A stretch of 64,000 nucleotides of DNA from Cinnamomum chago. Its lineage: Eukaryota > Streptophyta > Magnoliopsida > Laurales > Lauraceae. The notes under the pieces were generated by a model that saw nothing but the letters and a program-made list of their open reading frames with translations, was not told where the DNA came from and searched no databases. Where the stretch lies: positions 23,687,001-23,751,000 of the forward strand of contig CP142460.1 in the NCBI GenBank assembly GCA_038049695.1, written 5' to 3'. Shown in pieces: positions 3,013 to 56,945 of the stretch (positions within the stretch are counted from its first letter, which is position 1; each line of letters starts with the position of its first letter). The position numbers and the translations under genes were made by a program.

Positions 3013-3096
3013 AAAGACAAAGGCAAGGCTCCTCAGCAATCACCGGAAGTAAACAAACCCTCTATCAAAACCGAAGAGAATAATCAATCTCCCTTC

Positions 3097-6000
3097 ATGG
3101 TCTCCCTCAAGTCTTCAAAGCCTCTGGTGATCACCACCAAAGCAAAGAAGATAAAACAAAAGGCTGGGGGCAAGTTTGCTGTCTCCTTCGTGACTATCTT
3201 GCAAAACACGGATTCGGACTCAGAGCCAGAAGACGATACATCGTCAAGCCAAGCTGATGATCAACAAGTTCAGCCCGCTCTCACTCCGATGGAGACAACC
3301 GTTGACATAGAAGATCCGGCATCTGCTTCCTTCGTTGTTCCAGCAATATCAGCAGAAGAAAAGCCAATCTTCTTCCATAAATCGGGAGTTTCTTCATCAA
3401 ATTCTTCGCTTGAACCTTTCCAAAATGAAGGTATGCCTCAACTGTCCCTGTATAGTCTAATGGTGCAAGCTATCATGAAGAAAATGGGCTACGACGCTCA
3501 GAACCCAATCGGTTTGGGAGATGGTCGTGGTATTATCACGCCATTGGAACCAACCCTGACCAAAAGTCAACTGGAAGGTTGGAAACCCCACCGCCACATA
3601 GAAAAGTCTTCACATGGGCTAGGGTATGATCCTGACGCCTCCTTGAGACAGTTGACACAAAGGCCGCAAAGTCATCTTGTCGACCAAGCCTCAACATCTC
3701 ATATTAATGAAGACATTGATCTCCCTGGATATCTCTTTGAAGAGTTGACCGTCAAGGATCCAGGAAGTCTATCCAATTGGTACGATTCCTCTGATGATGA
3801 TGAAGAATTGTCCGATAATACAGACACACGGTTCTCTGACCCAGAAGAACCACTGTCTCCAAAGGAAGTGCCCTACTTCGACCTAGTTTCAACAGGTGAT
3901 TGGGACCACCTCATAGCAAATCTTGAGAAAAGTACCAATCAAGAAGACCCATGGACAAAAGCAGAGCCGTGGTCTGTAGATACCTTTGGAACTCCAGAAG
4001 GCTTTGTTGGGTTGGAAGCCTTCGAAAATATTGTGGAGGAACCACCTTCAAACCTTCCAACTGAAGATTCTGTTCAAAAGATAGACTTGGGAACACCTGA
4101 TAACCCACGTCCTGTATTCATAAGCAAGAATATAAAGGATGATGAGTTACCCGAGTATATCGCGTTTCTTCATGAGTTCGTTGATTGTTTTGCATGGTCT
4201 TACGCTGAGATGCCTGGCTTAGACCCCAAAATAGCAGTCCACAAACTCAATCTTCAAAAAGATATCAAGCCTGTCAAACAAGGCCAAAGAAGGTTCCGTC
4301 CTGACGTGAGGGACAAAATTGAACAAGAAGTTCAAAAACTCAAAAGCGTTGGCTTCATCCGTGAGGAACAGCATCCTGAATGGTTGGCCAACATCGTCCC
4401 CGTGACAAAGAAAAATGGGCAAATCAGGATCTGCATTGATTACAGAGACCTGAACAATGCATGCCCAAAAGATGAATTCCCGCTCCCTATACCGGAGGTG
4501 ATGATCGACAACACCTGTGGGTTTGAACTAATGACATTCATGGATGGCTTCTCTGGCTACAATCAGATAAAGATGCATCCTGAAGATGAAAAACACACAG
4601 CATTTCGGACCCCGTTTGGCGTGTATTGCTACACTGTCATGCCATTCGGTCTGAAGAATGCCGGCGCTACATATCAGAGGGCTATGATGAAGATATTCCA
4701 AGATATGCAGCACAAGACGGTCGAATGTTATGTCGACGACCTCGCCATCAAAAGCAAAAGAAAAGACGACCATCTCAAAGATCTTCGAGAAGTCTTCCTT
4801 GGACTTCGCAAACACAAACTGCGAATGAATCCCCTCAAATGCTTCTTCGGTGTTTCATCGGGTAAGTTTCTCGGATTCGTAGTACGGAAAGCTGGCATAG
4901 AGCTTGACCCCATCAAAGTCAAGGCTATCCTAGAAATGCCATCTCCAAGAACCCTAAGACAATTAAAAGGGCTCCAAGGAAGATTGGCATACATTCGACG
5001 GTTCATCTCCAATCTATCAGGGAAGTGCCGTCCATTCTCTCGGTTAATGAAGAAAGGTGTCGATTTTGTCTGGGATGCTGAATGTAAAGTCGCGTTCCAG
5101 GACATCAAGTCATACCTGACTAAACCTCCAGTGTTGGCTGCCCCCACAACTGGAAAACCATTCCTCTTGTACACAAGTGCCCTTGACTGTTCTTTAGGCG
5201 CTCTACTCGCACAAAAGAATGACGAGGGAAAAGAAGCTGCTCTATATTACCTTAGTCGCATGTTGATAGGTGCAGAGCATCGCTACTCTCCAGTCGAAAA
5301 AGAATGCTTGGCAGTGATGTTCGTCGTACAAAAACTGCGTCACTACCTGCTATCCAACACAGTGTACCTGATTTCGAGGATCAACCTCCTAAAGGTCCTT
5401 GTCACAAAAGGAGGCTCTCTCAATGCCCGACTGGCAAAATGGTCCATCCTCCTGTCACAATTTGACATTAGGTATGTACCACAAAAAGCAATCAAAGGCC
5501 AAGCTCTAGCAGACTTCCTCGCGGAGCATCCATTGCCTAAAGATTCTCCACTCAGGGATGACCTCCCAGACGAATCGGTCTACAGTGTGGAGACTTCCTT
5601 ATCAAATGCTTCCTGGCACATGTACTTCGATGGCGCAACCAGGACAAATGAAAAGGGAAATCAAATATCGGGAATTGGCATTCTCTTTGTTAGTCCCGAT
5701 AAATACATGATTCCGCATGCATTCTCGCTACTGGAACCATGTTCAAACAATGCAGCTGAGTACCAAGCCCTAATCATAGGATTGGAACTCGCCCTCGAAT
5801 CCGGCATCACTACGCTGGAAGCTTTTGGAGACTCTCAACTGATCGTCAACCAGATGAATCAGAAATTTGAAGTCAGGAAGCCCGATCTGTTGCCTTACTA
5901 CAACAAGGCACAATCGCTTCGACAAAAGTTCGACATCTGTCACATCACCCACATCCTCAGAGGTGAAAACATTCGTGCAGATGCCCTGGCTGTACTTGCT

Positions 6001-6483
6001 GCGTCTATGGCAATCCAAGAAGGGGAAAACATGCAAGTTACAGTGTGTCAAAAAAGGATTCTCCCTCCTCTCAACACACATCAAGCAGTTGCTGAATGCC
6101 ACCAAGTGGTTGGAAGTCGGATCTCCGTCCTTAAACCTCTGATCGGCGACTGGAGGGATCCGTTCATTGATTACATCATGTTCGGAATCCTACCTGAAGA
6201 TCCAAAAGAACGGGTAAGCATCCAAAGACGAGCCCCAAATTTTCATTTGGATATTCCTTCAAAAATGCTGTATAGAAAATCCTACAACGGAGTACTTCTA
6301 CGCTGCTTGTCACAACAAGAGGCTGAGGAAACACTCAAAGAAGTACATGCTGGTCTTTGTGGAGCCCATCAGGCTGGGCCTAAGCTCTACGATCAGATAA
6401 AAAGGTTAGGTTATTATTGGCCTACCATGGTGGCTGATGCAATGCAATTTGCTAAGCGCTGCCAACAATGCCAAATTCATTGA
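3097..6483 (+). CDS. RT, RNase H, second RNase H and integrase zinc region of A1
   Basis: The ORF is in the same frame as the upstream gag-protease. Residues about 120-165 (IMKKMGYDAQNPIGLGDGRG) resemble a G-patch, a nucleic-acid-binding motif found in some retroelement polyproteins. Reverse transcriptase covers roughly 395-640 with intact FMDGFSGYNQI and catalytic YVDD at residues 545-548 (nt 4729-4740). The RT-connected RNase H follows (LLYTSALDCSLGALLAQ). A second RNase H begins near residue 840 with MYFDGA (D845), NNAAEYQAL and FGDSQL, so D, E and D are all present. The C-terminus has the integrase HHCC zinc region (HAGLCGAHQAG, CQQCQIH). It stops at TGA 6481-6483, immediately before the integrase core in the same frame; a C-to-T change from CGA would explain it. 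Confidence 0.92.
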   Translation: MVSLKSSKPLVITTKAKKIKQKAGGKFAVSFVTILQNTDSDSEPEDDTSSSQADDQQVQPALTPMETTVDIEDPASASFVVPAISAEEKPIFFHKSGVSSSNSSLEPFQNEGMPQLSLYSLMVQAIMKKMGYDAQNPIGLGDGRGIITPLEPTLTKSQLEGWKPHRHIEKSSHGLGYDPDASLRQLTQRPQSHLVDQASTSHINEDIDLPGYLFEELTVKDPGSLSNWYDSSDDDEELSDNTDTRFSDPEEPLSPKEVPYFDLVSTGDWDHLIANLEKSTNQEDPWTKAEPWSVDTFGTPEGFVGLEAFENIVEEPPSNLPTEDSVQKIDLGTPDNPRPVFISKNIKDDELPEYIAFLHEFVDCFAWSYAEMPGLDPKIAVHKLNLQKDIKPVKQGQRRFRPDVRDKIEQEVQKLKSVGFIREEQHPEWLANIVPVTKKNGQIRICIDYRDLNNACPKDEFPLPIPEVMIDNTCGFELMTFMDGFSGYNQIKMHPEDEKHTAFRTPFGVYCYTVMPFGLKNAGATYQRAMMKIFQDMQHKTVECYVDDLAIKSKRKDDHLKDLREVFLGLRKHKLRMNPLKCFFGVSSGKFLGFVVRKAGIELDPIKVKAILEMPSPRTLRQLKGLQGRLAYIRRFISNLSGKCRPFSRLMKKGVDFVWDAECKVAFQDIKSYLTKPPVLAAPTTGKPFLLYTSALDCSLGALLAQKNDEGKEAALYYLSRMLIGAEHRYSPVEKECLAVMFVVQKLRHYLLSNTVYLISRINLLKVLVTKGGSLNARLAKWSILLSQFDIRYVPQKAIKGQALADFLAEHPLPKDSPLRDDLPDESVYSVETSLSNASWHMYFDGATRTNEKGNQISGIGILFVSPDKYMIPHAFSLLEPCSNNAAEYQALIIGLELALESGITTLEAFGDSQLIVNQMNQKFEVRKPDLLPYYNKAQSLRQKFDICHITHILRGENIRADALAVLAASMAIQEGENMQVTVCQKRILPPLNTHQAVAECHQVVGSRISVLKPLIGDWRDPFIDYIMFGILPEDPKERVSIQRRAPNFHLDIPSKMLYRKSYNGVLLRCLSQQEAEETLKEVHAGLCGAHQAGPKLYDQIKRLGYYWPTMVADAMQFAKRCQQCQIH

Positions 6484-6495
6484 GATTATGTCCAC

Positions 6496-7407
6496 ATGCC
6501 TCCAGAATGGCTACATCCTACAACAATCTCGTGGCCTTTTGAAGCCTGGGGTATGGACATCATAGGTCCTATCTCCCCTCCATCGAGCAAAAGTCATCGC
6601 TTCATCTTCGCCGCTACGGATTATTTCTCCAAGTGGTCAGAAGCATTCGCGCTTAGTGAAATGAAGACCTCATCAGTCCTTCAGTTCTTGCGCACCAACA
6701 TTATTTGTCGCTTTGGCATACCTAAAAGATTCGTCCATGATAACGGACCACAGTTCCGCGATCACCGATTCCACAGGTTCTGCGACAAATACAAAATCCA
6801 AAGTTGTCCTTCAACTCCGTACAATCCGGCAGCGAATGGACTAGCAGAGGCTTTCAACAAAACGCTCTGCAAAATCCTCAAGAAAATGGTCTCTAGTCAC
6901 AAAAGAGATTGGGGCGACAAACTGCCTGAAGCTTTGTGGGCCTATCGAACCACCGTTCGAGGACCAACCCATAGCACACCATTCTCCTTGGTCTATGGAT
7001 GCGAAGATGTTGTCCCTTTGGAAGTTCAAATTCCTTCCTTAAGGGTATCTCTGCAAAATGACATGACGCAAGAAAGTAATGTCAAATTGAGACTCCAAGA
7101 GCTGGATAACCTCGATGAGAGACGGCTCGAAGCTCTACAAAGCATTGAACTCTACCAAGCACGCATGGCAGTATCTTTTGACAAGAAGGTCAGGCAACGC
7201 GCATACAAAAAGGGAGACTTGGTTCTTACAGTAAAAAGACCAATGGTTTTTGCCAACAAATCCAAAGGCAAATTTGAACCAAAATGGGAGGGACCTTTCG
7301 TCATCGACAAAGTCTTCTCCAACGGCCCATACGCTCTTCTAAACATGGAGGGTGACAGATGTATGCTGCCCATCAATGGAAAGTTCTTGAAGCGGTACTA
7401 CCCTTGA
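6496..7407 (+). CDS. integrase catalytic core and C-terminus of A1
   Basis: This is the continuation of the pol frame after the TGA at 6481; the ATG at 6496 is only the first methionine, not a natural start. The DDE triad is complete: D21 in GMDIIGP (nt 6556), D82 in HDNGPQF (nt 6739) and E118 in GLAEAFNKTL (nt 6847), giving 35 residues between the second D and E. The C-terminal part (KGDLVL, GKFEPKWEGPF, LPINGKFLKRYYP) is the Tat-type integrase tail, and there is no chromodomain. The final TGA at 7405 is the expected end of the polyprotein. Confidence 0.92.
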   Translation: MPPEWLHPTTISWPFEAWGMDIIGPISPPSSKSHRFIFAATDYFSKWSEAFALSEMKTSSVLQFLRTNIICRFGIPKRFVHDNGPQFRDHRFHRFCDKYKIQSCPSTPYNPAANGLAEAFNKTLCKILKKMVSSHKRDWGDKLPEALWAYRTTVRGPTHSTPFSLVYGCEDVVPLEVQIPSLRVSLQNDMTQESNVKLRLQELDNLDERRLEALQSIELYQARMAVSFDKKVRQRAYKKGDLVLTVKRPMVFANKSKGKFEPKWEGPFVIDKVFSNGPYALLNMEGDRCMLPINGKFLKRYYP

Positions 7408-9262: not shown

Positions 9263-10202
9263 TCAGTCTAGCATGGTCTTCAACCAAAGATCCAGTTCCT
9301 CAAGCAGACTCTTGGCCTTAGCCTCCAAAGCTTCAAGACCGCGCTTCTTCAAGATCTTGCCATAAAACGCGGCAGAACGCCGCGACCCATCTTCAGCACG
9401 AGGAAGCTCTTCCCAGAGAATTTGCCACTGCTCATACTCCTGAGTCTTTCTCTGAAGGCTGCTACCGGCTTCTTCAACTTGGCGAATCAGAGTTCCCTCT
9501 TTAGCACGGGCTTCTACAATGGCAGTCCATTTGGTAGCATTTTGTTCTTGCAATTGCTCAAGGCGCTGCCTAGCTTCTGTGACCTCCCTATCAAGACGGC
9601 GCAGGTCCTGTGTTAGCTCGATGATAGCCAACTCGGTAACGTTCCTCTCCCGAACGAATTGCTTCCGAGCCCGTGAGATCTCATCCATTTCAGATTTGAT
9701 CTTACCGGATGGCTGCAAAACATCTCATTGAAAAAGTCACTGCTTGGGAAATTCTTGGTCTCAGTCCATTTGTCGCCTAAAGCAATGACTTCATCAACAA
9801 AGGCCTTGGCACTTGCAATGTCCAGACCGACCTCTGCACTGTCAGCAAGGATGTCCTGTACATGCTTGACCATGCCAAAACTAGTTTCCAAATGGCCAGA
9901 AGAGAGAGTTTCAACCCATGAGCTCAGCACACTCTTCAACACCTTCTTTGCATATTGAAGGGATGGTCCGGATGGAGATTCACCACGCTCTGTTGGCTGA
10001 CTGCCCACGTCAGGCCGTGGTGGAGAAGAAATCAAAAGGCTCTTTCCAAGCGGAGCCACTGAAGAAGCAATATCACCACAGAGTCCCGCCTCTGCCGTGA
10101 CGGGACTGGTAGAAGAAGCCCCTACTTCTGGATCGGCTGCTGGCATCTCCTGCTCTGGCCCTGAGGAAGGCGAAGGAACTTCTCCTGTTGCTTCACAACC
10201 TG
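9263..10202 (-). CDS. exon 5 of the antisense gene: linker and coiled coil, one frameshift
   Basis: The exon begins after a CAG acceptor at 10203-10205, in phase with exon 4. The first part (10202 to about 9720) encodes a proline- and serine-rich linker, then a helical segment (VLKSVLSSWVETLSSGHLE). Near 9716-9722 the frame shifts by one; the second frame (9718 to 9263) encodes a strongly charged heptad-like coiled coil (LRRLDREVTEARQRLEQLQE) ending in TGA at 9263-9265. No GT donor close to the shift would make a plausible intron, so I read it as an indel in this copy. An intron missed by eye remains possible. Confidence 0.7.
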
Positions 10203-13200
10203 CTGGCAAAAACACAAGAAAAGGTATGAATATGATCTTGTCAAAAAAAAATCAATGTCAAGATTATCACTATGGAATACCTTCTTCCATGATGGGTGGA
10301 GTACTTTCTGTCTCCATTTGCTCATCTGAGGCATCGTCAAAAGCTATATCCATAGATGGCTCGAAGTCGGAATCCTCTGGCAAGTCAGCTGACAAGAAAA
10401 CAAAAATATGTGTCAGCAAATTCAAAGAAAAAAAAAATCATCATCCTCATACCAGGTGGAGATTCTGGGTCCTCCCCAGAGTCCCTCAATTCTTCTTCAG
10501 ATGCCGCAACTGGATCCATCACCGCCTCATCGACAGGAACCTCGGGCATCACCAAGTTTTCATCTTCTGCAAAAGAAAGAAAACAGCAGATCAAAAAAAA
10601 ATCCCTCATAAAAGGAAAGAAGCGGAAATAGAAAAGAAGGAGAATCATACCAACATCGGCGGTCTCTTCTTCACGACTCCTCTTCTTTGGAGGCTCACCA
10701 GCATCTCCTGATACCTCCTCAGCAATAGTAGGAGGGACTTCCAGATCAGGAGAGTCTTCGTGACGTCTCTCAATGCGACGCTGTCCTCTCCTCCTCTTTT
10801 TTCTACGAGCCGGTCTACTTGAAGTACCTGCCTCACTGTCAAAGTCAGGACTTCCACTTGGCTCCTCACTAGATGGCCCGCTCCTACCAGTAGACCCCAT
10901 GGAAGCCTTCATTTGCTCTTCTTGCATCCAAGTGTCGATCTCGGTTTCCTCCTCCGCGAGCTGTCTCAAGACCTCAACAGGTATCTCTTGTGCGGCCCCG
11001 GATCTGATGACATCCTGTTCCTCGAGAAAGCCTATCCTATGCTTCTCTCCAGAAAGGAAGAACAAAACTTCCTCTCGACGGACGCCATCTGATCTACCAA
11101 GACCCTTCCCAGGAGATTGCTTGACATTCAGCTCCTTCTCGGAAAGCCCTCGGTACACAGCAAAGCTCTCCACGAACCACTTCGTGAAGCCAGCAGTCCG
11201 GAAAGTGGGCAACTCAGGATAGGAAATCATGGCAGTAGTGTCCCCCGCACTATAGAAAGCCCATGCGTTTCTCCCATCCTGCAAACCTCCAAAACGCTTC
11301 ACCATGCTCGAAGGTGCTCCAACAACGCCTTGAGAGAAGCCTAACTGCAACGCAAAACGCGAAGGGACATACGGCTGGATGTCAACAAAAAGATGTCTGC
11401 GGTACACCATCGTGCCAACACGTATGTTTAAAAGCCACCTCTTCTCTGCGTTGGTCAAAGAATAGTGTCTTCCCGATCCTGCCCTGGTGGAATCACGGGA
11501 GACACCAAAATCAAAAGCCTTCTTCTGCAAATCTGGAGAAAGCTTTACTGAAGATTGCCCAATCTCGACATCCCTGAATCGTCGGATTCTCAAGCGGGTG
11601 GACAGAAGTGAATCGGAAACGGCTTTTCCCCTAGCCAACCGAATCATAAAAGGGTCATCATCCTGTGCAACGCCTAAACGATGAAAGCCAGGACAGTGGT
11701 ACACATACCACGAATAGAAAATATGGGCTGAAAATACTCTGTTCATGGGGAGCCCAAGCAGGACCAAGAAAGCAGCAGCCTGAAGTTCGGTACATAAATA
11801 GGAGTAAAGAGCCGGCACCAAAGCTAGCTGCTCTCCAAACGCCATCTGACAAGCCGGAAAAATACAATGCGGCCTGAGGTGCGTCCCATCTCCTCCAGCA
11901 AAGACAGCCTCACCTAGCCAGTAAGTGAGGTACATAGCGAGATCTCTTCGCAGCGCGATGTCGGAACAAATGGCGCTTGTGCTTGCAAAGAATTCCTTCA
12001 GATTTTCTCGCATAACGGAGATCTTCTTCGAAGCCAGATTCTTATCAGAAGATTCTCCACTGCCAAAGAAGTTGGGAGATAAAGAGCCAAAATTCTTCCA
12101 ACTGCTGCACCGGACTTTCAAGCCCTCCTTCTCCTTCAAAAAATCATAGAAGGCGACAAGCTGAAAGTACAAAAGCCTGAACTCCTCGGACTGTTCCTCA
12201 AGGATGCTGTCGATCGGCATAAATCCCTCATAGAGTTTGCCGAGGATGGGCAACCCGGTAATGGCACTCAGCTCCTTCAAAGAAAAACCAATCTCTCCAT
12301 TCGTAACAATGAAGGTGTTGGTTTGTGGAAGGAAGGACTCCAGCATGGCCATAAACGCCTCATCGAAGAAAACTACGGTTTGCCTAAAAACGCGAACCAC
12401 ATCAAAAATCTCGGCCTCCTTCAGAATGGCACCGCCGATCTGCAGGATGTGATCAGTCCACGACTCCCAGCCTGAGTCTGCACTGAAGCGGCCACGAAGC
12501 CGAAATGGCTTTACCCAATTGCTGCCATCACCCCTGAAAATGCCAAGGCCCACCGGTCTCAAATCAACCGATGGATGATCAGATCCTTGGTAGCCGCTGG
12601 CCGGCATCAACATGTCTAGACGGACAGGCGACTTCTCTGCATAACCAGAAGGACCGCCAACAAAAACCCCGGTCTTGACCACATTGGTCCTCTTCACCCA
12701 GCTTGGAGGATCTTCTCTCTTAGAGCATGTGGGAGAAAGACTCATGATCGAAATAGTACGATCAAAAGGCGATCGGGTAGAAATGGTTCTCTCCTCACCA
12801 TCAGCTGTGTAAGAGAATTGAAAGCATCTCCTTTGGTATGACGAGTCATCAGGGGCTGCATCACCAAAAAAAAAAGTAGGCTTGGGCACAACGCTCTGAT
12901 CGTCCATGACCCAAGGACGATTGCTTACCATAATCTTGTAGAACTCCTCATCCTTGAAAGCGATCAGTCGCTGTCTCATCTCATCTCGGTTGAGCGAGTC
13001 ACACTCTTCCAAGTTTCTCTCCACATACTGGACCTTCTCCCAGGCCTGCTGTACGGCCGTATTGGAAGATTTGGCAGATCGACGAGGTGCATTGGTAACT
13101 GGTTCCTTACCCTTGTTCGTTTTGGAGGAACTGCCTGCAAAGATTGAAAGAAAGAAATCAATCAACAGAATGACAGAATTTTGCTAAAAAAAAATCCTAG

Positions 13201-14074
13201 CGAAATTTTGGCATGACTACGGGGCAATTCCAAAGAAAAGGGAATCACCCCGAAAAGAAAGGAAGCCTGAAGATGAGCTCAACATCGCCGCGAGCTCATG
13301 ATCAATGAAGGATTCTCAAAGAAGACGTGAACTCAAACATTGCTGTGAGATCAAGACAGTCTTCTCAAATTTCCGCAAGAATCGGAAAAGAGCTCAACAT
13401 TGCTGCGAGCTTCAAATCCCAAAACTTGCAAAAAGCTCCTTGAAACCCCCGCAAGACTAAAGAAAGCGCTCAACATTGCTGCGAGCTTCAAATCTCGAGA
13501 CTTGCAAAAGATTTCCAGGTGTGCATCATCATCATGCTCCCAATTCAATTTACCAAAAATCATGCATAAAAGAAAATCATCATGCACTAGATGCTAGGAA
13601 AACCTTGACAAAATTTGACCAATTCCAACCCAATTTGGTCAAAATCAAACTTTGTCTAAGTCAAAATTCATGTTGGCTTAGCATAGAAATTCTAGCCTTC
13701 TATCTTGATGCATAAAAAAAAAAAAGGGAATGCATGAGCATCTTGGATTGCATAAATCTCATTATCATGGAGAGCAAAAAGAGGGGAAAAGAAAGTTTTC
13801 TTTCTTAAAAAGAAAGAGAAAAAAAAAAAGAGAAAAGAAAATTTCTGGGCTGGCCCACAGGCCGTGGCCCATGGGCCACATGGCCGTACGGCCCAGGCTG
13901 TACGGACATGTCCGTACAGTAGCAAAAAAAAAAGAAAAGGGCGTGTAAAAAAAAAAAAGAGGAAAACAACACGTGCAAAAAAAAACAGAGAAAAAAAAAA
14001 TGATGCTGAAACTTTCTTTACATGGAATTTCTTGTAAAAAAAAAAGAGAGAAAAAAAAACTTACTTGAAGCCAT
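9263..14074 (-). CDS. antisense five-exon gene in A1: plant mobile domain protein with coiled-coil tail
   Basis: On the minus strand I can place five exons: 14074-14065, 13134-10651, 10566-10453, 10388-10281 and 10202 to 9263. Every intron starts GT (GTAAGT, GTATGA, GTATGA, GTATTC) and ends CAG, and all four are phase 1; exons 2, 3 and 4 are multiples of three (2484, 114, 108). Joining them gives an open frame of about 1,200 codons, starting MASS at a good ATGG context, with one frameshift near 9716-9722 in exon 5. The product has a PMD, basic nuclear-localisation-like stretches, acidic linkers and a coiled coil. PMD proteins (MAIN/MAIL family and transposon-borne relatives) are established; Tat elements are known to carry additional ORFs here. 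The function in the element is unknown. Confidence 0.82.
10651..13134 (-). CDS. exon 2 of the antisense gene: plant mobile domain
   Basis: The exon has 828 codons. The N-terminus is serine- and lysine-rich. The PMD core is near plus-strand positions 12100-12500, with WESWTDHIL, FDEAFMAMLESFLPQTNTF and LSAITGLPI, the pattern of a tryptophan-led first block and a late (S/T)GLP block seen in PMD proteins. The region after the core (about 11000-12000) is folded-looking and rich in aromatics. The end has RRKKRRRGQRRIERR and PPKKRSREEE, probable nuclear localisation signals. The acceptor is TTTGCAG at 13135-13141; the donor GTATGA starts at 10650. Reading on beyond the donor gives a hydrophobic low-quality sequence, which supports splicing there. 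Confidence 0.8.
13270..13510 (-). repeat. repeats in intron 1 of the antisense gene
   Basis: Four spaced copies of a unit containing GAGCTCAACATTGCTGCGAG or a variant lie near 13275, 13333, 13392 and 13468. Each unit has a GAGCTC or AGCTC arm and a GCGAGCT arm, so it can fold on itself. They lie within the predicted first intron. Confidence 0.6.
13864..13919. repeat. cluster of three perfect palindromes
   Basis: Three different perfect palindromes lie within 56 bases: 16 bp centred on CCCATGGG (13864-13879), 12 bp GGCCGTACGGCC (13882-13893) and 22 bp with core TACGGACATGTCCGTA (13898-13919). They are GC-rich islands in an A-rich stretch inside predicted intron 1 of the antisense gene. Confidence 0.85.
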
Positions 14075-14194: not shown

Positions 14195-14202
14195 CTTTTA
14201 TA
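14195..14202 (-). promoter_or_regulatory. TATA box candidate for the antisense gene
   Basis: The minus strand reads TATAAAAG, about 120 bases upstream of the ATG at 14074, leaving room for a 5' leader of roughly 90 bases. The leader has no other ATG that I can see. It implies the antisense gene has its own promoter rather than depending on the LTR. Confidence 0.55.
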
Positions 14203-14279
14203 GAAGAAAGCAAACCAAAAGAGGAAAGAGAAGAAAACTAAGGAGGTAAGTGCTAAAAATTAGCAACCTTCCCAAAAGA

Positions 14280-14490
14280 AAAGGAAACTTGGGATATTCT
14301 CTCCCAAAACAAAGATTCCTTGAGAAATTCTCTCCAAAAAGAAAGGGAATGATAGATATTCTCTCCCAAAGAAATATATTTTGAGAGAATCTCTCCCAAA
14401 ATCAAGGAAACTTGAAAAAAATCTCTCAAAGTAAAGATATTTTTAGATATTCTCCACCCAAAGGAGATATCTTTAGATATTCTTTACAAA
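14280..14490. repeat. degenerate repeats upstream of the antisense gene
   Basis: Roughly seven variants of AGATATTCTCTCCCAAA occur in a row. They lie upstream of the antisense TATA box, where a promoter would be, but I cannot assign a factor. Confidence 0.5.
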
Positions 14491-14820
14491 AATGACACCA
14501 TATGAGATCTAAGCCATCTTTCAAAGCTTAAGGTCCCATGGGTTAGCCCATATGAGCCAGGTTTGACCACCTAGGCACTAAAAGTGGCTTTTAGTCAAAA
14601 TTTCTCTTACCAAGAGCATACAAAAAATGGTCCCATGCCTCTTTTGAGTTGATTGGACCATACCATACAAAAATCCAAGCTTCATGAGTTTCCAAAAATC
14701 CAAACCATCCCACCACATGAACCAAATTAAGCCAAAATCTTGAAATTGACATTCCACAAAAGCCCAAACCACTCCAATGGACCCAAAATTGTCCCAAAGA
14801 GTGAACCAAAAAACCAAACC

Positions 14821-15213: not shown

Positions 15214-16268
15214 CATTTGTTGACACCAAAAATGTCACTTTGCCTCCTCACACCAAAAGCTACACGGAGCCGCATCCTACCAAAAATAGGCAGGCGCTAC
15301 TTCAAGCATCAGATCTTGTCAGAATCAAACAAAAACTGCAAGGTCATTCAAAACAACCAAAAGAGAGGTACACATGAAGTTTCGGGCCATTCCGACATCA
15401 TTCGGCCTAACTTCACTTCTCCAACAGCTGAGCAGCAGCTCCCGGCGGCGACAGTGTCGAAGACTTCAAATCTTCAATCAGAGCCTACGGATGGTTACAA
15501 AATACCACCAAAATGCTCCATGTTAAGTTTCAAGTCAAACCGACATCGTTTGACCGGAAGTCAAAACTCGGGATTTCCCTCGCGGTGAAATCAAGGCAAG
15601 CGTTTGCATGACCCCAAACGGCTTCAAAACTCAAACGAAAGCCTATGGTTGGTCTTATCTACTAATGAGGGAGTCACACGTCGAGTTTCAGGTCAATCGG
15701 ACATCGTTTGACCAAAAGTCAAAGCTCGGCATTTCCCTCGCGGTGAAATAAAGGCAAGCGTTTGCATGACTCCAAATGGCTTCAAAACTCAAACGAAAGC
15801 CTATCGTTGGTCCTATCTACTGATGAGGAAGCTACCCATCAAATTTCAGGTCAATCGGACATCGTTTGACCGAAAGTCAAAGCTCGGCATTTCCCTCGCA
15901 GTGAAATCAAGTCAAGCATTTGCGGGCCCCCAAACCGCTTCAAAACCTAAACAAAAGCCTATGGTTGGTCTCGTCTACTGCTCAAGAAGCTACACATCGA
16001 ATTTCAGGTCATTCCGACATCGTTTGACCTAGTTTCGACGCTTGACAAAAAAATCGGCAGTTCTCCACAGCAAAGTCTTCGGCTTTTCAGAAAATGGGAA
16101 ACTTTGCGATCCGATTTGCACGGCTTCTCTTCAGGTTCTCTTGAGGGAAATCCAGCCAATAAATGAGAGGAAATTCCAAGAAAAATGCAGGAGAAAACAT
16201 AAGCAAAAACGGACGAAAAATGGCGAAGAAAAAGCGACCGAAAGGCGGCCAAAAAAATGGGCCAAGGC

Positions 16269-16328
16269 CCATGGTCGCCGGCCCCATGGTCTCCAGCGAC
16301 CATGGAGGTCCGGGCCGCCGGACCTCGC
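16269..16328. repeat. inverted-repeat cluster in the A1 LTR
   Basis: The arms CCATGGTCGC and GCGACCATGG (10 bp) flank a second CCATGG, followed by AGGTCCGG and CCGGACCT arms. The A2 LTR has a shorter, rearranged form at 54241-54292, so the block is unstable between copies. Confidence 0.8.
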
Positions 16329-16999
16329 CCAAAAACCCCGTTTTTCGGGTATTTTTCGCGTTTCGAGTTGATTGGCCCCTGTGATTTTTCCAAAATCTGA
16401 TTTTTTGTGCATGATATCCGTCGATCTTCATCAACATCACGGATCCATCACTGGAATCATTAGATCATCATCGGACGCCTCAAGATCGTCAAACGGCTAA
16501 CCAAGAAAGCACCATTTCTGCCCGCCCGATCGCGAAATCGACTGGACAGATGTTGCTGGCCCGCTGACATCAACCAATGTTTGACATTGGATCACCATCC
16601 GACATCAAATGGTATGTGGGTCCATTGGTGATCATCGCAAGAAGAATCCCAAATGACGCGGCACGGCCCGCGACTCTTCAAGCGCCCAGGCAATCAATTA
16701 ATGAAGTTAAATGACCCGTTTATGGCAAGTTAATGCGGTCATTAACTCATTATTTTGAACGGCCCAATCAGAAGCAAGCAAATGGGAGTTACAAGTCCAA
16801 GTAATCATGACATTAAAATTATGAAACTCCCGTCATCATGGAGATTAAAGGCGATTAAATGCCCATTACTCTCCATCGGCCAATCAAATTCAAGGAAAAA
16901 GGAGTTACGAAACAAGTAATTAAAAACTTGTAACTCCTCCCATCATGAGCATTAATACCATAAATGCTCATAAACTCTCCTAAATGGCTACCAAATGTC

Positions 17000-17007
17000 T
17001 ATAAATA
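17000..17007 (+). promoter_or_regulatory. LTR TATA box (A1)
   Basis: TATAAATA is followed by AGGAGGCCATTCC. The same sequence is at 54962-54969 in A2. It is the likely core promoter for element transcription, putting U3 at about 1.8 kb. Confidence 0.7.
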
Positions 17008-17174
17008 GGAGGCCATTCCAAGGGAAACGGATCCAGAAAAATCGCCAGAAAATCATTCAAAGATCCAGAAAAAATCGCCAGAAAATCATTCAAAAATCCT
17101 CGGAGAAATCTCTACAACTCTGCTCCTTCAAGAAAACTCTACTGCAACAAGCACTACAAGGTGATCAAAGCTCC

Positions 17175-17196
17175 TTGGGGGGGGGCACCCCCCCAA
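17175..17196. repeat. G-run/C-run hairpin in the LTR leader
   Basis: Nine G, then CA, then seven C (with the C of CA adjoining) form a near-perfect hairpin about 170 bases after the TATA box. In A2 (55137-55164) the runs are 11 G and 11 C. It would lie in the transcribed leader. Confidence 0.8.
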
Positions 17197-17524
17197 AGGC
17201 CACCTCTCCTCCTATCCAACATGGCTAGATGCGGCTTTTCAGTCCGTCTACTCGGCTTTTTACCGGATATAGGACCTTACCTTGGTCCTTATCCTCTAAA
17301 AATCTGAGGTTGGAGCCAAGCCAAAGAATCAAAGCACTATGTTCTCATCTGAAGGACGATGGCGGAGCCCATACATGACTCGCGACCGTCGATCTGAACG
17401 AGCCCTCCCACAATCGCATGAGAAGTTAGATTCCTTTTTCTTACTTTTCTGTTGTAAATTGTATTTTTTAAGAGACAAAAAAATCGCAATTCTTGTCTTT
17501 TCATTTTGATGAGATTTGTAAATC

Positions 17525-17613
17525 GCCTTTTACGGCACCAAATCACCTTTTACGGCAAAATCGCCTTCAACGACACCAAACCGCCTTCTACGGCACAAAA
17601 ACGCCTTTCACGG
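17525..17613. repeat. short array CGCC-N6-GGCA in the LTR 3' part
   Basis: About five copies of CGCCTTTTACGGCA or a variant occur. A2 has about six (57450-57561). The arms have the reverse polarity of the internal array at 8326-9062 (GCC-N6-GGC here, GGC-N6-GCC there). Confidence 0.75.
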
Positions 17614-17861
17614 CATTCAAAAATTGTCTCTTTCATTAAAATATATTTGCAATGGAAAACTAGAAAAAAGTTTCATTTCCCTTTTTACTTGTGAAGGTGA
17701 ATCTCCGGATCACCATTTCTAAATTCCAGGTATAAAAGAGAAATTGGCATACCCGTACAAAAAAAAAACTGATGCCCGTTTTTCCTTTCTTTCCCTCCAC
17801 CGTACCCCGTCAGCCCCGGGGCGGAGGCAGCTTTGGAAAAAGAGAAAAGCCGGGACCATCA

Positions 17862-18062: not shown

Positions 18063-19902
18063 GGCGCTGCATGCAGGGAGACGTTTGGCGGCGTGAGGTG
18101 CTGCTGCAGAGGAAGATGAAGGCGCTGCGGTCGTCCGGGGGTTGCTGCGTGCGTCTGGCAGGGAGATGAAGATGGGTTTGCGATGGATGGAGATGGAGAG
18201 AGAGAGAGAGAGAGTCCAGTGAGGGTGATGATGGGGAGATGAAGGAGAGGGTGCCGCTGTGAGGGAGATGTCTGAGCGTTCCTAGATGATGAAGATGGAA
18301 AGATGATGGAGATGGGAGTTCTCTATGCTGGAAGAAGATGGACGGTGGGAATAATGGCCGGGCGTCTGCGGGCGTTGATGGAGGATTGGAGGGAGATGGA
18401 AAATGACGATGGGCTGGGATATGAGAGGAGACAGGCTCAGAGATAGAGAGGAAAGATGGACGGAGATGGTGAGTGTGGAGATGGCGTCTGTGGTTGTGAA
18501 GATGGGTGCTGGGTTCAAGGATGATGATGGGCTGCAGGGGGCCGTCTGGTAGAGAGGATGCAGTTGTGCAAGGGGGTCGTGAGATGGGAAAGGGGGGATC
18601 AGTGCAGCATGGAGAACGAGAAAGGTTGTGGAGATGAGATCTGCACCCTTGAAAAAAAAAGGAATAGGGACGAAAGGAGAGGGTTCTTTAGGAGAGTGGG
18701 ATGGTAGAGAGTCCAGAGATCTGGGACTCGAATTACCAGATCTCGTGGACTCCTCTCCCTTATCCAGGTGGTGGGCCGAGAGGAAGGTTAAGTCTCGAGT
18801 TGGGCCGAATGGGTCAGACTTGATGGGTTTAATGGGTTTGGAACCTGATCTGGGTCAAATGGGTTTAGTTGGCCTGGGGTCAGATCCGGGTTGGGGTAAG
18901 GTGTATGTTTGGGTTTGATGGCCCAATGGGTTGATTTAGTTGAGGTTTAAGCTAGGTTGAATGAGCCTGATGAGTTCTGACTTGAGTTGGGCCGAACGGG
19001 TTTGGGCTAGGATGGGATAGAGAGAATGGAAAAGATAGGAGTCTTGAGGGGGTAAGATTCATCCCATAATTTGAAAAGAAGATTTGCTAAAGCATGGGAT
19101 GGATGATTCAAATGAAGATCAGATTAACCGCAGGTTTAGCTATCCTATATTTAAAAATCAAGTTTTGAAGGTTTGCTTTTGTTGATGGGTCAAACGTATT
19201 ATATGGATTGGTGGGCATGGCCAGGTTGGGTTGTTGAATTGGAGAGGGCCGGCCCATTCATCTCTTTGATTGGAAAAAAGGTAGAACCCACGCATGCCAA
19301 ATATGTAGAAATCAAGCTTAGGATTTAGCCATTGGATTTCTGTGAATTGAATATTCGTGGAAGATTCTTGGTGAGGAGAACACATTGGCATATTGACTCA
19401 AACCATTTGAAGACCAGCAAGAAGTTCGAAATTTTAGGGACCCAGGCCAGATTAATTTTGAAGAAGAAACCATAATTTGAGATCCGACCGTCAGATTTTT
19501 CAAATCTCAGCATTAGTGGAAATCTCTTGACAAGTAGGTCCCGATGATATATGGGTCTGGTTCATTTGAAGATCTATTAAATATCTGAATTTTTAAGGTG
19601 CGCACATATATTAAGTTCGTAAAAAAGGCATATCTCTTGATCCGATCGTTGGATTCTTCAAATCCTTATATCAGCAGGAAGCTTATTAAAGGTAGATCAT
19701 CATGGAAGTGAGATCCGACTTGAAACATGAGTGGTGGTGAGATCCATAAAAAAAGTCCTATATTGATGCAACCATCCCAATTGTGCATGATAATGAAGAT
19801 TTAAATTTATTTATTCAAAATTGTCCAAATGGGGCAAAATTGGGGCATCAATAATATGAGTATTAAAATTGTCCATAGGGGTGCCAAAATGAGGTGTCTA
19901 TA
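18063..19902 (-). repeat. 3' LTR of C, distal end missing
   Basis: It matches 43247-44953 closely, with one extra block of about 156 bp (18622-18780) that is missing from the other LTR. On the minus strand it begins TATAGACACC, one base different from TGTAGACACC in the 5' LTR. A (GA)n run lies near 18195-18213. The ORF 18628-18918 is repeat-rich and not credible as a gene. Confidence 0.8.
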
Positions 19903-29802: not shown

Positions 29803-32800
29803 TGTCACGTCCCTCAAAATAAGAATTGGGGAAAAACGTGAAAAATAAATTAAATTCAAATTTTCCTGTGTTTAATACAACACAAGCTTCCAAAAAGTGG
29901 ACCCACAAAAAATTCAACCTGTGGTGAGTCAAAATATATTTCATTAATGCAACAGAAGCTTAATCAATTGGTATTCAATGATCATAAATAAGATCCAACA
30001 CGAAAATCAAATAAACATTAATTGTTAAAGTTGCAGAATAAATAAAACAATTACTAAAGAAATGTTTATCATTAAAGAAAGTTCATCTAAAGAGTTGCTA
30101 AGATGACGTTCACTCTCATGCAGGCTCAGACTGCTCCGAAACCGTCTCCGGCATCCCACTCGGGTTCATCAGTTGGCTCAAACGTTTGAAACGCTTGATC
30201 CTCCTCCGTCTCCTGGGTAAAGTAGGGCTCGGTACCTATGCACCAAATATTACAAAGTAAACAGCAAGTACATAATCATAATTCGAAATTTAATACAACA
30301 ACGAGAAGAATATAAACGAGAGCGATCATATAGAAGTAATGACAATAATAATGACAAGAAAGGACGTATAGCCTAATCCAAATAAAACAAAATGAGCAAT
30401 ATGATTCACACGAAGACAAGTATCCCCGTTTTGGGTGGTCAGCCCTAAATAAATTGGGAGAGCCCGTCCATAACGTCAGTGGTCATAAACCGATCGAATT
30501 AAAAACAAATCAGGATAACCTGTTCACATTCAAAGCGGATTATAAGTGATTCGGTCACATCGGTGATCAACCGTCCATATATCGATCTGCAGTCGTCCAT
30601 AAATGACCCACATAAACATAAATATATAAGCATAATAGACCTGAATAATAAAGCTCCGACACAAGAGTCCTAAGTCAAAATAAAGTGCTGGCCATTCCAC
30701 ATCCCATATCATAATCAAATAATCATTACAAAGTTTGCCAAGCCACTTTATAGTCCATAATACACAATAGGGTATGCATCTAAAGGAATACATATCATAA
30801 ACCAACATATATATACATGCGAAGGTTAAGACATAGATACGAATCGATCCTAAGGTCAAACATAAGGTCTCATACCCCACAACTATAGAAATCTCTAATA
30901 AATATAAGATCAACGCATCCCTTTTCCATTAATGGTGCATAGACCCAATTAAGGGTTTTCCAATAGTGATGGGTTGAACTCGAATCTATTAGGATTTCCC
31001 CGAGGTCATTCGAGGCATTAAACCCCATGTTGGTAATATACCGTTGCCCGGACGGTATATACTTGGTCCAAAGAAATAATAATAAAGTACAAAAATATAA
31101 TTTTAGCACATTAGAAACTAAATATATCATTTAATATTAATTTGCAAATAATGACAAATAACCTTAGCTTACAATTTTTAGAAAACTTAGGTCCCATCTT
31201 AGTGTATTTCCAAGAATACAAATTTCAAGAATCCAATGGGTTCATTAAAGAATAAGGGTCTTTTTCTAAATTCTATAAACTATGAGGTAGGCAGGGAAAT
31301 ACTTTGATAGCATTTAATGCTTCTCACATGGGAAACACTCCTTCCAATTCATGTCCCAGGTCAATTGTACTCTGCCCCCTCCACACACCAGTCAGTAGGG
31401 AAACAGTCACTCAACACAGAATGCACCTATGTAGTAAGTAATTTCACACCAACTGTATCAAGCTCCTTTAGAAAGTGGGCCCTACTAATCAAACCTCATA
31501 CTCAGCCCCACCTATAAGGTCGCCAAGGCCCCTCACTAGATCCATGGTCCGGATTGGTAATTGGGTCACTCCCAAAAGTTATTCAACGTTCTGCACATGT
31601 GTTCCCCCTACTGCCCTTCTGTTTTCTTTTTAATTCATGTACAAGTCAAGGTCAGGCTGCCCCTACACTATTAATGTCAAACATGCATTGATAGTGGCCC
31701 CCACCAGATTATATGAAAGGAAACACTTGTCTCCATGTTCTGCAACTAGAGGTCTTCCCCCTACTTTTATTTTCTTCCAAAACCTGTACAGATCCAGCCA
31801 CACCACAGAACCTCATTCACGCCTGTAGCAACCGGATGACTAAATACTGGGTCCCACAGAGCACAACCCCATATCACCAAGACAAGCAACATCGTCCAGC
31901 CATGAATGGATTATTGCCCGGGCTAGATCTCTTCTCACAACATGATTAAATATAATTAAAATAATTTCAAAGTAACTCACACCCCAAAATTCAAAATCAA
32001 AAGACAGTGGCCATATATGTACATGGCATCATCACAAAAGAGAAAATCAAACCTTAGGGCATAAAATAGATTTCTACATGCATCCACACATGAATCAAAA
32101 GAGGAACACAAGCATTAAATTTACAATTTATAATTAGGTACTTGCCTTTTACCGGGGTTGAAAAAATGCACAGATCCTGACCAAAACCCAAATCGAGATT
32201 CCCACAGCGCTCAATCACAATCCTAACACCAATCTGATATAAGAGATGAGAAAGAAATACCCAAGTAATCAGATCTATGATATTCCTACCCAAATCCTAG
32301 CATTGGAAAGAAAAGGGAATAACCCAAGAATACAGATCTACTCCTAATGATTTGAGGAGATGGTTACCTGAGATAAGAAAGTTGAGCCAATAATGCTGGT
32401 ATCCTCTGATTTTGATTCTGATGGCTGGATCCTAAAGCTGGAATGACTTGGGAAGTTGAAAGAGGAAGAAGACGAACGGGAAGAGTTGCGGAGAGATAAG
32501 TGGGAAGAGATGAATCGTGAGATTAGTTAAAATAGGGATTAGGTTAAAAGGTGGGCTTAAGTTATTGGGTCAAAACTACGGGTCAGGTCATCTACCCATT
32601 AACCCAACTCACTAAACCACGCATCTAATCTAACGTGTGGCCTGTTGGGATTGGTGTATGCCCTAAAGCCCACTGACTGCACTCACATCTCTGTTACTGG
32701 ATATTTATTGGTTATTTAATGGAATGACTTCTTTCTCTTTATACTTGTGTATATGTATGGTTGTGTAAGGCCCATTGTTTTCTAGTAATGACTTAGGTGT

Positions 32801-39810: not shown

Positions 39811-42756
39811 TGTCACGTCCCCCAAAATAAGAATTGGGGAAAAACGTGAAAAATAAATTAAATTCAAATTTTCCTTTGTTTAATACAACACAAGCTTCCA
39901 AAAAGTGGACCCACAAAAAAAATTCCTGTGGTGAGTCAAAATATATTTCATTAAATGCAACGAAAGCTTAATCAATTGATATTCAATGATCATAAATAAG
40001 ATCCAACACGAAAATCAAATAAACATTAATTGTTAAAGTTGCAGAATGAATAAAACAATTACTAAAGAAATGTTTATCATTAAAGAAAGTTCATCTAAAG
40101 AGTTGCTAAGATGACATTCACTCTCATGCAGGCTTAGACGACTCCGAAACCGTCTCCGGCATCCCACTCGGGTTCATCAGTTGGCTCAAACGTTTGAAAC
40201 GCTTGATCCTCCTCCGTCTCCTGGGTAAAGTAGGGCTCGGTACCTATGCACCAAATATTACAAAGTAAACAGCAAGTACATAATCATAATTCGAAATTTA
40301 ATACAACAACGAGAAGAATATAAACGAGAGCGATCATATAGAAGTAATGACAATAATAATGACAAGAAAGGACGTATAGCCTAATCCAAATAAAACAAAA
40401 GGAGCAATATGATTCACACGAAGACAAGTATCCCCGTTTTGGGTGGTCAGCCCTAAATAAATTGGGAGAGCCCGTCCATAACGTCAGTGGTCATAAACCG
40501 ATCGAATTAAAAACAAATCAGGATAACCTGTTCACATTCAAAGCGGATTATAAGTGATTCGGTCACATCGGTGATCAACCGTCCATATATCGATCTGCAG
40601 TCGTCCATAAATGACCCACATAAACATAAATATATAAGCATAATAGACCTGAATAATAAAGCTCCGACACAAGAGTCCTAAGTCAAAATAAAGTGCTGGC
40701 CATTCCACATCCCATATCATAATCAAATAATCATTACAAAGTTTGCCAAGCCACTTTATAGTCCATAATACACAATAGGGTATGCATCTAAAGGAATACA
40801 TATCATAAACCAACATATATATACATGCGAAGGTTAAGACATAGATACGAATCGATCCTAAGGTCAAACATAAGGTCTCGTACCCCACAACTATAGAAAT
40901 CTCTAATAAATATAAGATCAACGCATCCCTTTTCCATTAATGGTGCATAGACCCAATTAAGGGTTTTCCAATAGTGATGGGTTGAACTCGAATCTATTAG
41001 GATTTCCCCGAGGTCATTCGAGGCATTAAACCCCATGTTGGTAATATACCGTTGCCCGGACGGTATATACTTGGTCCAAAGAAATAATAATAAAGTACAA
41101 AAATATAATTTTAGCACATTAGAAACTAAAGATATCATTTAATATTAATTTGCAAATAATGACAAATAACCTTAGCTTACAATTTTTAGAAAACTTAGGG
41201 TCCCATCTTAGTGTATTTCCAAGAATACAAATTTCAAGAATCCAATGGGTTCATTAAAGAATAAGGGTCTTTTTCTAAATTCTATAAACTATGAGGTAGG
41301 CAGGGAAATACTTTGATAGCATTTAATGCTTCTCACATGGGAAACACTCCTTCCAATTCATGTCCCAGGTCAATTGTACTCTGCCCCCTCCACACACCAG
41401 TCAGTAGGGAAACAGTCACTCAACACAGAATGCACCTATGTAGTAAGTAATTTCACACCAACTGTATCAAGCTCCTTTAGAAAGTGGGCCCTACTAATCA
41501 AACCTCATACTCAGCCCCACCTATAAGGTCGCCAAGGCCCCTCACTAGATCCATGGTCCGGATTGGTAATTGGGTCACTCCCAAAAGTTATTCAACGTTC
41601 TGCACATGTGTTCCCCCTACTGCCCTTCTGTTTTCTTTTTAATTCATGTACAAGTCAAGGTCAGGCTGCCCCTACACTATTAATGTCAAACATGCATTGA
41701 TATTGGCCCCCACCAGATTATATGAAAGGAAACACTTGTCTCCATGTTCTGCAACTAGAGGTCTTCCCCCTACTTTTATTTTCTTCCAAAACCTGTACAG
41801 ATCCAGCCACACCCACAGAACCTCATTCACGCCTGTAGCAACCGGATGACTAAATACTGGGTCCCACAGAGCACAACCCCATATCACCAAGACAAGCAAC
41901 ATCGTCCAGCCATGAATGGATTATTGCCCGGGCTAGATCTCTTCTCACAACATGATTAAATATAATTAAAATAATTTCAAAGTAACTCACACCCCAAAAT
42001 TTAAAATCAAAAGACACTGGCCATATATGTACATGGCATCATCACAAAAGAGAAAATCAAACATTAGGGCATAAAATAGATTTCTACATGCATCCACACA
42101 TGAATCAAAAGAGGAACACAAGCATTAAATTTACAATTTATAATTAGGTACTTGCCTTTTACCGGAGTTGAAAAAATGCACAGATCCTGACCAAAACCCA
42201 AATCGAGATTCCCACAGCACTCAATCACAATCCTAACACCAATCTGATATAAGAGATGAGAAAGAAATATCCAGGTAATCAGATCTATGATATTCCTACC
42301 CAAATCCTAGCATTGGAAAGAAAAAGGGAATAACCCAAGAATACAGATCTACTCATAATGATTTGAGGAGATGGTTATATGAGATAAGAAAGTTGAGCCA
42401 ATAATGCTGGTATCCTCTGATTTTGATTCTGATGGCTGGATCTTAAAGCTGGAATTAATGACTTGGGAAGTTGAAAGAGGAAGAAGACGAACGGGAAGAG
42501 TTGGAGAGAGATAAGTGAGAAGAGATGAATCGTGAGATTAGTTAAAATAGGGATTAGGTTAAAAGGTGGGCTTAAGTTATTGGGTCAAAACTACAGGTCA
42601 GGTCATCTACCCATTAACCCAACTCACTAAACCACGCATCTAATCTAACGTGTGGCCCACTTAATCCTACCCACTTAAATAACTAAAATACATTAAATTA
42701 ATATAATACTAATATTTTAATAATAAATATAATTAGTGGCGGGGCCGGATCTTACA
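39811..42756 (-). repeat. 5' LTR of B (2,946 bp)
   Basis: Uninterrupted LTR, TGTAAGATCC to GGACGTGACA on the minus strand. It is close to identical to the other LTR by eye. It gives the empty-site reference for insertion D. Confidence 0.94.
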
Positions 42757-55762: not shown

Positions 55763-55903
55763 TCGGTCGACCGAGCCCTGTGTCTCGGTCGACCGAGGAC
55801 ACTGCAGGGCCCCTGTGCAGTTTTTGAACTGTAAGCCTCCAACGGTCAGATTTATGACCGTTGTGCCTTCTCGGTCGACCGAGACCCCTCTAGGTCGACC
55901 GAG
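55763..55903. repeat. four TCGGTCGACCGA palindromes in F
   Basis: Perfect or near-perfect copies lie at 55763-55774, 55784-55797, 55870-55883 and 55893-55903. They are upstream of the TATA box of F at 55932. Confidence 0.88.
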
Positions 55904-56734
55904 ACAACTAGCCGTTGGACTGTTTTTTGCCTATAAAGTCCATTCTATTTCCAACTTCTCAAATGTTGAAAAAATGAGCCTTTGAGAGCATTTTGGAGCC
56001 AAACAAAGGGGATGAAGTTGGAAAGGCTAGGAGGTCTTTAGGAGAGCTAAAGCTTGGGATTAATGAGTTAAACCTCCAAGTAAGCTCTACCTTTATTAAT
56101 CATAGTTATGTGCTTTGTTTAAATTATTGGTATATGATATTTAGCATAATAACTATGATGTGTTGAATCCTTTCTTCTCCTAATCTTTGATTTAATTAAG
56201 ATTGGATTCTTCACCTTGGTTTCAATCCAAGTTGTTTTTTAAACCTTACTCAATCATGCTTAGCTAAAGTCTTTGATTTCCTTTAATGCATGATTCTTTG
56301 TTTTGGTTGAAACCTAATATGTTGTTTTCTTTCATTTGAACTTTAGTCAAATCTATTTGTTTTTGAAAACAACATTGCACATGCATCACATGTTCTAAGT
56401 TAGTCATTTTCATACAACTTGTGATTCTTTGATTTTCATATCATTAACAAGTTATTAAACATACATGTGATTTGCATTAAACTTCAATCAAGTCTTTTAT
56501 GAGTCTTAAACTTTGAAATGCCTTGGGCATACATTTGATTAAGCTTCCTTTTTAATCTTGATTGAAGTCATCACACACACACCTCATTAGCATACATCTT
56601 TGCATTCTTAGAGTGTTTGTGTGAGTTTGTTATTCACTTTCAAATCCGCCTATTTTAAGAGGCAATTACATTGAGCTAAAATTGTATCTCTTAGAGTGAT
56701 CTTTTGTGAAGACACTTTCTTTGAGAAATCTTTA

Positions 56735-56945
56735 TTTGTAAAGGTTATTGCTAAGCCTAAGAAAAGCAACTTGTAAGGTTATTGCTTAGCCTAATAAAAG
56801 CATATTGTAGGGTTATTGCTAAGCCTAAGAAAAGCATCTTGATAGGTTATTGCTTAGCCTTGAAAAGCATCTTGTAAAGGTTGTTGTTGAGCCTTAGAAA
56901 AACAACTTTGTAAGGGTTATTGCTTAGCCTAGTAAAAAAGCATAA
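56735..56945 (+). repeat. six tandem units of about 35-40 bp in F
   Basis: The unit is GGTTATTGCTTAGCCTAA with AAAAGCA and a short variable spacer. The units lie in the transcribed part of the LTR. Confidence 0.8.

Follow-up and report, generated by a model that had tools for sequence, protein, structure and literature searches.

A Maintained, Probably Spliced Antisense Gene for a Plant Mobile Domain Protein in a Tat-Type Ty3/gypsy Retrotransposon of Cinnamomum chago

Introduction

Can a retrotransposon, which has to pass through an RNA stage, keep a gene with several introns? This question is raised by a locus of Cinnamomum chago (Lauraceae). The window analyzed here is the whole stretch of 64,000 nucleotides (nt) at positions 23,687,001 to 23,751,000 of contig CP142460.1 (assembly GCA_038049695.1), read on the forward strand. 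Much of a Tat-type Ty3/gypsy element lies on its plus strand, and its minus strand carries, at 9263-14074, a gene predicted to have five exons and to encode a plant mobile domain (PMD) protein. We consider it likely that this is a genuine spliced antisense accessory gene of the element, kept by selection that acts on the element lineage. The accessory gene is maintained, and its transcript is probably spliced, as judged from the conservation of sites and frames among copies.

A Five-Exon Gene Model on the Minus Strand

The predicted gene opens with a TATAAA box at 14197..14202 and a start codon (ATG at 14074, in the context CCATCCATGG). The start codon is carried by exon 1, which spans only 10 nt (14074-14065) and is followed by intron 1 (13135..14064). 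Exon 2 (13134-10651; 2484 nt) sits within an open frame of 932 amino acids, counted from stop to stop, and encodes the bulk of the protein. Two small acidic exons come next: exon 3 (10566-10453; 114 nt, net charge -13) lies between intron 2 (10567..10650) and the 64-nt intron 3 (10389..10452), and exon 4 (10388-10281; 108 nt, net charge -14) precedes intron 4 (10200..10280). Exon 5 (9263..10199) supplies the C-terminal region and the stop codon. All four introns have GT-AG borders and lie in phase 1, and the lengths of exons 2 to 4 are multiples of three; in this anatomy, the TATA box and the ATG included, an earlier sequence-only reading of five minus-strand exons was confirmed in all but the reading frame of exon 5. 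Exon 5 has two in-phase acceptors three bases apart, which would place its start at 10202 or at 10199. Since L050, a single copy of about 20% divergence that serves as our divergent comparator, retains only the second of the two, the acceptor end of intron 4 is most likely 10200.

The PMD, first recognized from the sequence alone, was borne out by a Pfam profile search of exon 2 (PF10536; 51.5 bits against a gathering cut-off of 34.9, E 1.1e-13). The best stretch covers residues 365-653 (11174..12040). A basic cluster resembling a nuclear localization signal follows at residue 776, near the end of exon 2, and from it we guess that the product is nuclear. The structure prediction for exon 2, made from 26 sequences, reached a mean predicted local distance difference test (pLDDT) of 36.1 and a predicted template modeling score (pTM) of 0.22 and was not used. 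A sequence search of the PDB gave one match, which was not significant (E 0.15); the viral contigs searched gave no match, and Rfam and tRNA scans of the window found nothing.

Purifying Selection in the Spliced Frame

The genome searched, in which the window itself lies, comprises 1.06 Gb in 14 contigs. From 4507 first-look candidates of a search with exon 2, 55 copies were scored; the copy number of the family may be large. The main set holds 48 of these 55, the window itself included and the 7 others left out, and a second search, whose query also covered parts of exons 3-5, added six copies (L049-L054) to give 54 in total. Copies L002-L048 were picked by their exon 2 score, with exons 3, 4 and 5 lying outside that query.

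Variants seen in a single copy and variants shared between copies behave differently in this set, where a stretch was counted only in copies that agreed with the majority at more than 80% (37-48 of the 48 copies). Singleton variants are spread about evenly over the codon positions (225/205/241 in exon 2; 38/37/37 and 48/42/57 in the two halves of exon 5), as is expected of decay after insertion, and their ratios of nonsynonymous to synonymous polymorphism (pN/pS) are 0.64-1.43. Variants shared by at least four copies are predominantly synonymous once scaled by sites, with a pN/pS of 0.19 in exon 2 (122 variants), 0.24 and 0.23 in the halves of exon 5 (39 variants), 0.14 in exon 3 and 0.25 in exon 4, the last two being drawn from small counts (3 and 13 variants). 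The same shared variants give 0.48-1.51 in the shifted frames of exons 2 and 5.

Ratios of nonsynonymous to synonymous divergence (dN/dS) point the same way. Between L050 and the other copies, the median in-frame dN/dS is 0.21 for exon 2, 0.22 for exon 3 and 0.28 for exon 5; exon 4 gives about 0.28-0.31 in two pairs, and the shifted frames of exons 2 and 5 give 0.77-1.42. For exon 5, the comparison took in only those copies, 35 of 54, whose exon 5 measures 941 nt. A second grouping, group B, was defined through the length of exon 2 and does not come out as a clean clade in the tree; here dN/dS is 0.19 in frame for exon 2 and 0.22 for exon 5, where group B consists only of L040 and L051-L054, and 0.85-1.52 in shifted frames. 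Pairwise dN/dS binned by dS was dropped as evidence, being biased by its own denominator. The integrase of the carrier element, compared between L050 and the window, has a dN/dS of 0.08 (dS 0.40, 347 codons), and with 0.21-0.31 the antisense protein is therefore constrained, though less than the integrase. Family-wide conservation, which is a mark of the aORF-3R type of antisense frame, is thus found here in a looser form than for integrase. The comparison between copies that had been proposed as a check on maintenance has been run, and its results go against a neutral evolution of the PMD exons.

These values also bear on another explanation, in which the antisense transcript works as an RNA, by pairing with the genomic RNA, as a source of small interfering RNA or by interference, while its coding capacity survives only as a relic. 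Long terminal repeat (LTR) retrotransposons are known to be regulated by antisense RNA (PMC7264820; PMC12786077). Neither a codon-position bias nor a frame-specific dN/dS is expected under an RNA-only role, however, and we regard it as very improbable.

Splice Sites, Exon Lengths and Points That Weigh Against Splicing

Among the 48 copies, the donors of introns 1 to 4 (D1-D4) are kept in 43, 47, 43 and 42 copies and the corresponding acceptors (A1-A4) in 47, 44, 43 and 45, with A4 taken at 10200; the alternative exon 5 acceptor, an AG at 10203, is kept in 42. The ATG is retained in 41 of 48 copies, a terminal TGA or TAA in 42, and TATAAA in 41 as well as in all 6 further copies. Exon lengths are largely stable: exon 2 measures 2484 nt in 44 of 48 copies (2487 or 2505 in the others), exon 3 measures 114 nt in 42, exon 4 measures 108 nt in 43, and exon 5 measures 941 nt in 30. 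Intron lengths, in turn, are scattered across all three residues modulo 3 in these copies, and intron 1 ranges from 383 to 1136 nt among the 54. By inspection, L050 has the TATA box, the ATG and all splice sites, with A2 shifted upstream by three bases, in phase. In the region before the TATA box (14203-14632), L050 differs from the other copies by 0.154, and in introns 2-4 by 0.25-0.34, hinting, in this single diverged copy, at a possible promoter constraint.

Several observations weigh against a gene that is spliced and maintained. All eight splice dinucleotides stand in their alignment column in only 34 of 54 copies. Of the 20 copies that fail this column test, L050 does so through an alignment shift, and L009 and L053 have lost A2 by a base change; we attribute the other misses to base changes, exon losses, truncation or foreign sequence. 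Intron 3 measures just 25-32 nt in L020, L030, L032 and L034, all of which keep both flanking exons. Such lengths are too short for normal plant splicing, and introns of this size may stay in the transcript. Exons 2 and 5 are both open in no more than 8 of 54 copies, and the window copy is not among them. Close copies resemble the window in introns 2 and 4 (0.921 and 0.908) as much as in exons 3 and 4 (0.892 and 0.884), so that among close copies the contrast between exons and introns rests on length and codon position; at the level of single bases it is visible only against L050, which is a single copy. The dN of exon 2 is biased downwards because L002-L048 were selected by their exon 2 score. 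Finally, a random frame of intron 1 also gives a pN/pS of 0.38 for shared variants, though these are distributed 31/41/44 over the codon positions.

Loss of Whole Exons and Survival of the Introns

Equal intron phases were expected to permit exon skipping without loss of frame, and at the DNA level this expectation was upheld: 5 of the 54 copies lack one middle exon. Exactly exon 3 is missing from L027, L038 and L047, and exactly exon 4 from L031 and L043. In each of the five cases, the T-tracts of two successive introns have been fused, and the loss leaves the frame unchanged because all introns are in phase 1. The outer splice sites are kept, except for a GC instead of GT at D2 of L027. As these copies form no single clade in a tree built from the rest of the gene, the losses look recurrent, although the junctions of L027 and L047 are alike and the picture could be blurred by recombination between copies. 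L027 and L043 additionally have a broken exon 5, and three further copies (L005, L024 and L025) are interrupted or truncated in the region of exons 3-4.

One conjecture, which we think rather unlikely, would give these losses a wider role. The T-rich phase-1 introns, which are A-tracts in the genomic RNA, would act as joints for template switching by reverse transcriptase, whole acidic exons could be lost or added in frame, and retrotransposition would shuffle the exons of an anti-silencing factor.

Spliced junctions, tested as exact words, occur in none of the 54 copies, and a search for processed copies with the spliced junction of exons 3 and 4 of the window found nothing genome-wide, even with 3 mismatches allowed. 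These results are consistent with the earlier proposal that introns readable only in the antisense direction survive retrotransposition.

Related Proteins in the Databases

The 25 closest database proteins comprise 22 from avocado (Persea americana, Lauraceae), two from ENA contigs and one labeled Yersinia pestis. A second search added 17 avocado proteins and no other plant among the approximately 7990 candidates scored; since both searches scored only about this number, namely the candidates sharing most words, absence from other plants is not shown. Among the 25, exon 3 is joined directly to exon 4 in 9, four of which also join exon 4 to exon 5; exon 3 runs to exon 5 without exon 4 in 4, exon 2 runs to exon 5 in 1, and none of exons 3-5 is present in 11. 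All proteins with such joints are from avocado, and in 1 of the 42 related proteins, the avocado annotation P0012, the start fits the joint of the micro-exon 1 with exon 2. The avocado annotations, which are gene predictions made by others on another genome, use the same joints. The entry labeled Yersinia pestis (P0002) lies on a 4.3 kb contig and is a relative of the present plant retrotransposon protein, at 79% identity; its label is evidently a contamination or mislabeling.

The 11 proteins without exons 3-5 could be read as a sign that exon 2 alone makes the functional product, and that the small exons and their splicing have decayed or are rarely used. Exon 2 holds the PMD and shows the highest agreement of all gene parts among the copies (0.962), most of which were, however, picked by exon 2; exons 3 and 4 are missing from some copies, and the very short intron 3 of the four copies named above would fit as well. 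Against this stand the low shared-variant pN/pS of exons 3, 4 and 5 in the spliced frame (from 3, 13 and 39 variants), their low dN/dS against L050, the retention of D2 in 47 of 48 copies, and exon 3 and 4 losses that spare the outer splice sites in all cases other than the GC at D2 of L027. We therefore consider a product of exon 2 alone improbable.

The database relatives also speak to a second alternative, in which a host PMD gene was recently captured and rides along as a passenger that does nothing for the element. Host genes do carry the PMD, and capture of this domain by MULE elements has been described (PMC5418596). A passenger gene would decay neutrally, however, whereas here the same exon plan recurs in dozens of copies and in the avocado annotations and is under selection; the diverged L050, too, retains the gene within a few kb of pol and on the opposite strand. 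We accordingly consider a recent passenger very improbable.

Defects of the Window Copy

The window copy is a decayed member of a maintained family. The start of its exon 5 reads in the frame of the open reading frame (ORF) at 9613-10251, while the stop at 9263 belongs to the ORF at 9263-9724. Exons 1-4 sum to 2716 nt, and the total is no multiple of three once exon 5, taken from 10202 (940 nt), is added. Among the 54 copies, exon 5 has 941 nt in 35 and 940 nt in 8, the window copy being one of the latter. The frame switches at eight different places in the eight 940-nt copies (at about 9720 in the window), and the lesion is for this reason private to the window copy. The avocado proteins and L050 have one continuous exon 5 frame across about 9720, with a single stop elsewhere in L050. 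A sixth exon was considered as the cause of the frame switch and rejected, given that relatives read exon 5 in one frame and that the switch is private. Of the proposed gene model, the exons and splice borders hold; exon 5 as a single reading frame does not, as it falls into two frames with a break near 9720. The carrier element is damaged as well, by an in-frame stop at 6481-6483 within its integrase.

The Carrier Element and the Rest of the Window

On the plus strand, the first part of pol (3013..6483) encodes reverse transcriptase, RNase H, a second RNase H and the start of integrase, and ends at the in-frame stop; the remainder of integrase (6484..7407; Pfam rve) continues as an ORF in the same frame past it. 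The Pfam order is RVT_1, RT_RNaseH, RVT_3 (residues 878-993) and then Integrase_H2C2, as is typical of Tat elements. In Ogre and Retand elements an additional RNase H lies between RNase H and integrase (PMC6317226), and we read RVT_3 as this probable additional domain. The 3' LTR (15218..17861, TG...CA) is matched by a 5' LTR at 53191-57806, which belongs to a second element. With pol ending at 7407 on the plus strand, the gene at 9263-14074 on the minus strand and the 3' LTR starting at 15218, the gene occupies the position of an aORF-3R.

The second family copy starts with this 5' LTR, into which about 1.95 kb has been inserted at 55247-57198, and continues with gag. At 59943-63881, gag and the region that follows form one frame with a single stop between them at 63015-63017. 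One motif within intron 1 (13380-13424) of the antisense gene turns up again, inverted, in the leader of this second element (59433-59479). Between the two Tat copies, the repeat pair 18063-19316 / 43246-44367 flanks a region with another Ty3/gypsy element inside it. This element has a repeat pair of its own (29946-32642 / 39954-42657), and its gag-pol lies on the minus strand; the stretch from 18063 to 44367 consists of nested insertions.

Discussion

Antisense accessory genes at the same position are known in the Tat elements Grande, RIRE2 and Retand (PMC7264820), and gene23 of maize Grande, an antisense Tat gene, is transcribed from a promoter of its own and yields a nuclear product (PMC7264820). 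The present gene shares position, orientation and family-wide conservation with these genes (PMC7264820; PMC11963269). They are described as ORFs with TRP28, which predominates in Retand (PMC11963269), with SMC or with no known domain, whereas here we find a PMD and five exons. The PMD itself has been reported in 57% of Ogre elements (PMC6317226), and the PMD-A1 and PMD-A2 clades are exclusive to gypsy elements (PMC5418596); our gene is set beside these ORFs by domain and element type alone, that is, as a PMD encoded by Ty3/gypsy. A literature search for "plant mobile domain" with "antisense" returned no report of an antisense PMD gene in the text available, and wider searches listed no paper in which a plant retrotransposon carries an antisense gene of several exons. 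Tat elements with antisense accessory genes and gypsy elements with PMDs are each known, and in these sources we found their combination in a multi-exon antisense PMD gene unreported. The authors of PMC7264820 advise searching for antisense and spliced transcripts.

We infer transcription, splicing and a nuclear location of the product from genomic DNA. The antisense transcript would be driven by its own TATA promoter, an independence that the conserved TATA box and start codon support only indirectly, and would be spliced from five exons into an mRNA and translated. The resulting protein would consist of the PMD, the basic cluster, an acidic middle from exons 3-4 and the C-terminal region from exon 5. 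The genomic RNA, driven by the LTR, would carry the complements of the introns unspliced and take them through reverse transcription, since the introns exist as such only in the antisense RNA and the genomic RNA keeps them. Selection on the element lineage would keep the protein, while single copies would decay after insertion.

What the protein may do for the element is a matter of speculation. Host MAIN and MAIL1 silence transposons together with PP7L (PMC7156037; PMC8616336), and an effect of transposon-encoded PMD proteins on silencing, including a counter-silencing role, has already been suggested in general (PMC8616336). Because of these two points, our best guess is that the product would work in the nucleus as an accessory factor to the benefit of the element, most plausibly through interference with silencing by the host PMD pathway (MAIN/MAIL1-PP7L). 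We hold this role to be possible but somewhat doubtful: MAIN and MAIL1 are host genes, compared here by their shared domain, and it tells against the proposal that this kinship is the sole tie between them and the antisense gene.

Outside plants, spliced antisense genes are known in deltaretroviruses, such as HBZ of HTLV-1 (PMC10186651). HBZ, too, is an antisense gene that is spliced and located close to a retroelement's 3' LTR. Its expression is driven by that LTR, however, while the TATA box of the present gene is internal, at about 1 kb from the LTR, and the splicing is predicted from conserved sites; domain and host differ as well. The likeness would be one of working principle, not of homology.

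If transcripts confirm the gene, a plant retrotransposon takes a gene with several introns through the RNA stage of its cycle because these introns lie on the antisense strand, which would make it comparable to the spliced antisense genes of deltaretroviruses. It would also mean that surveys of single ORFs, such as one that used ORFs of at least 250 codons (PMC6317226), catch only part of such genes. The eight copies in which exons 2 and 5 are both open are open-frame relatives within the same genome. Altogether, the gene would provide a concrete test case for the published idea that PMD proteins of elements counter the PMD silencing of their hosts (PMC8616336).

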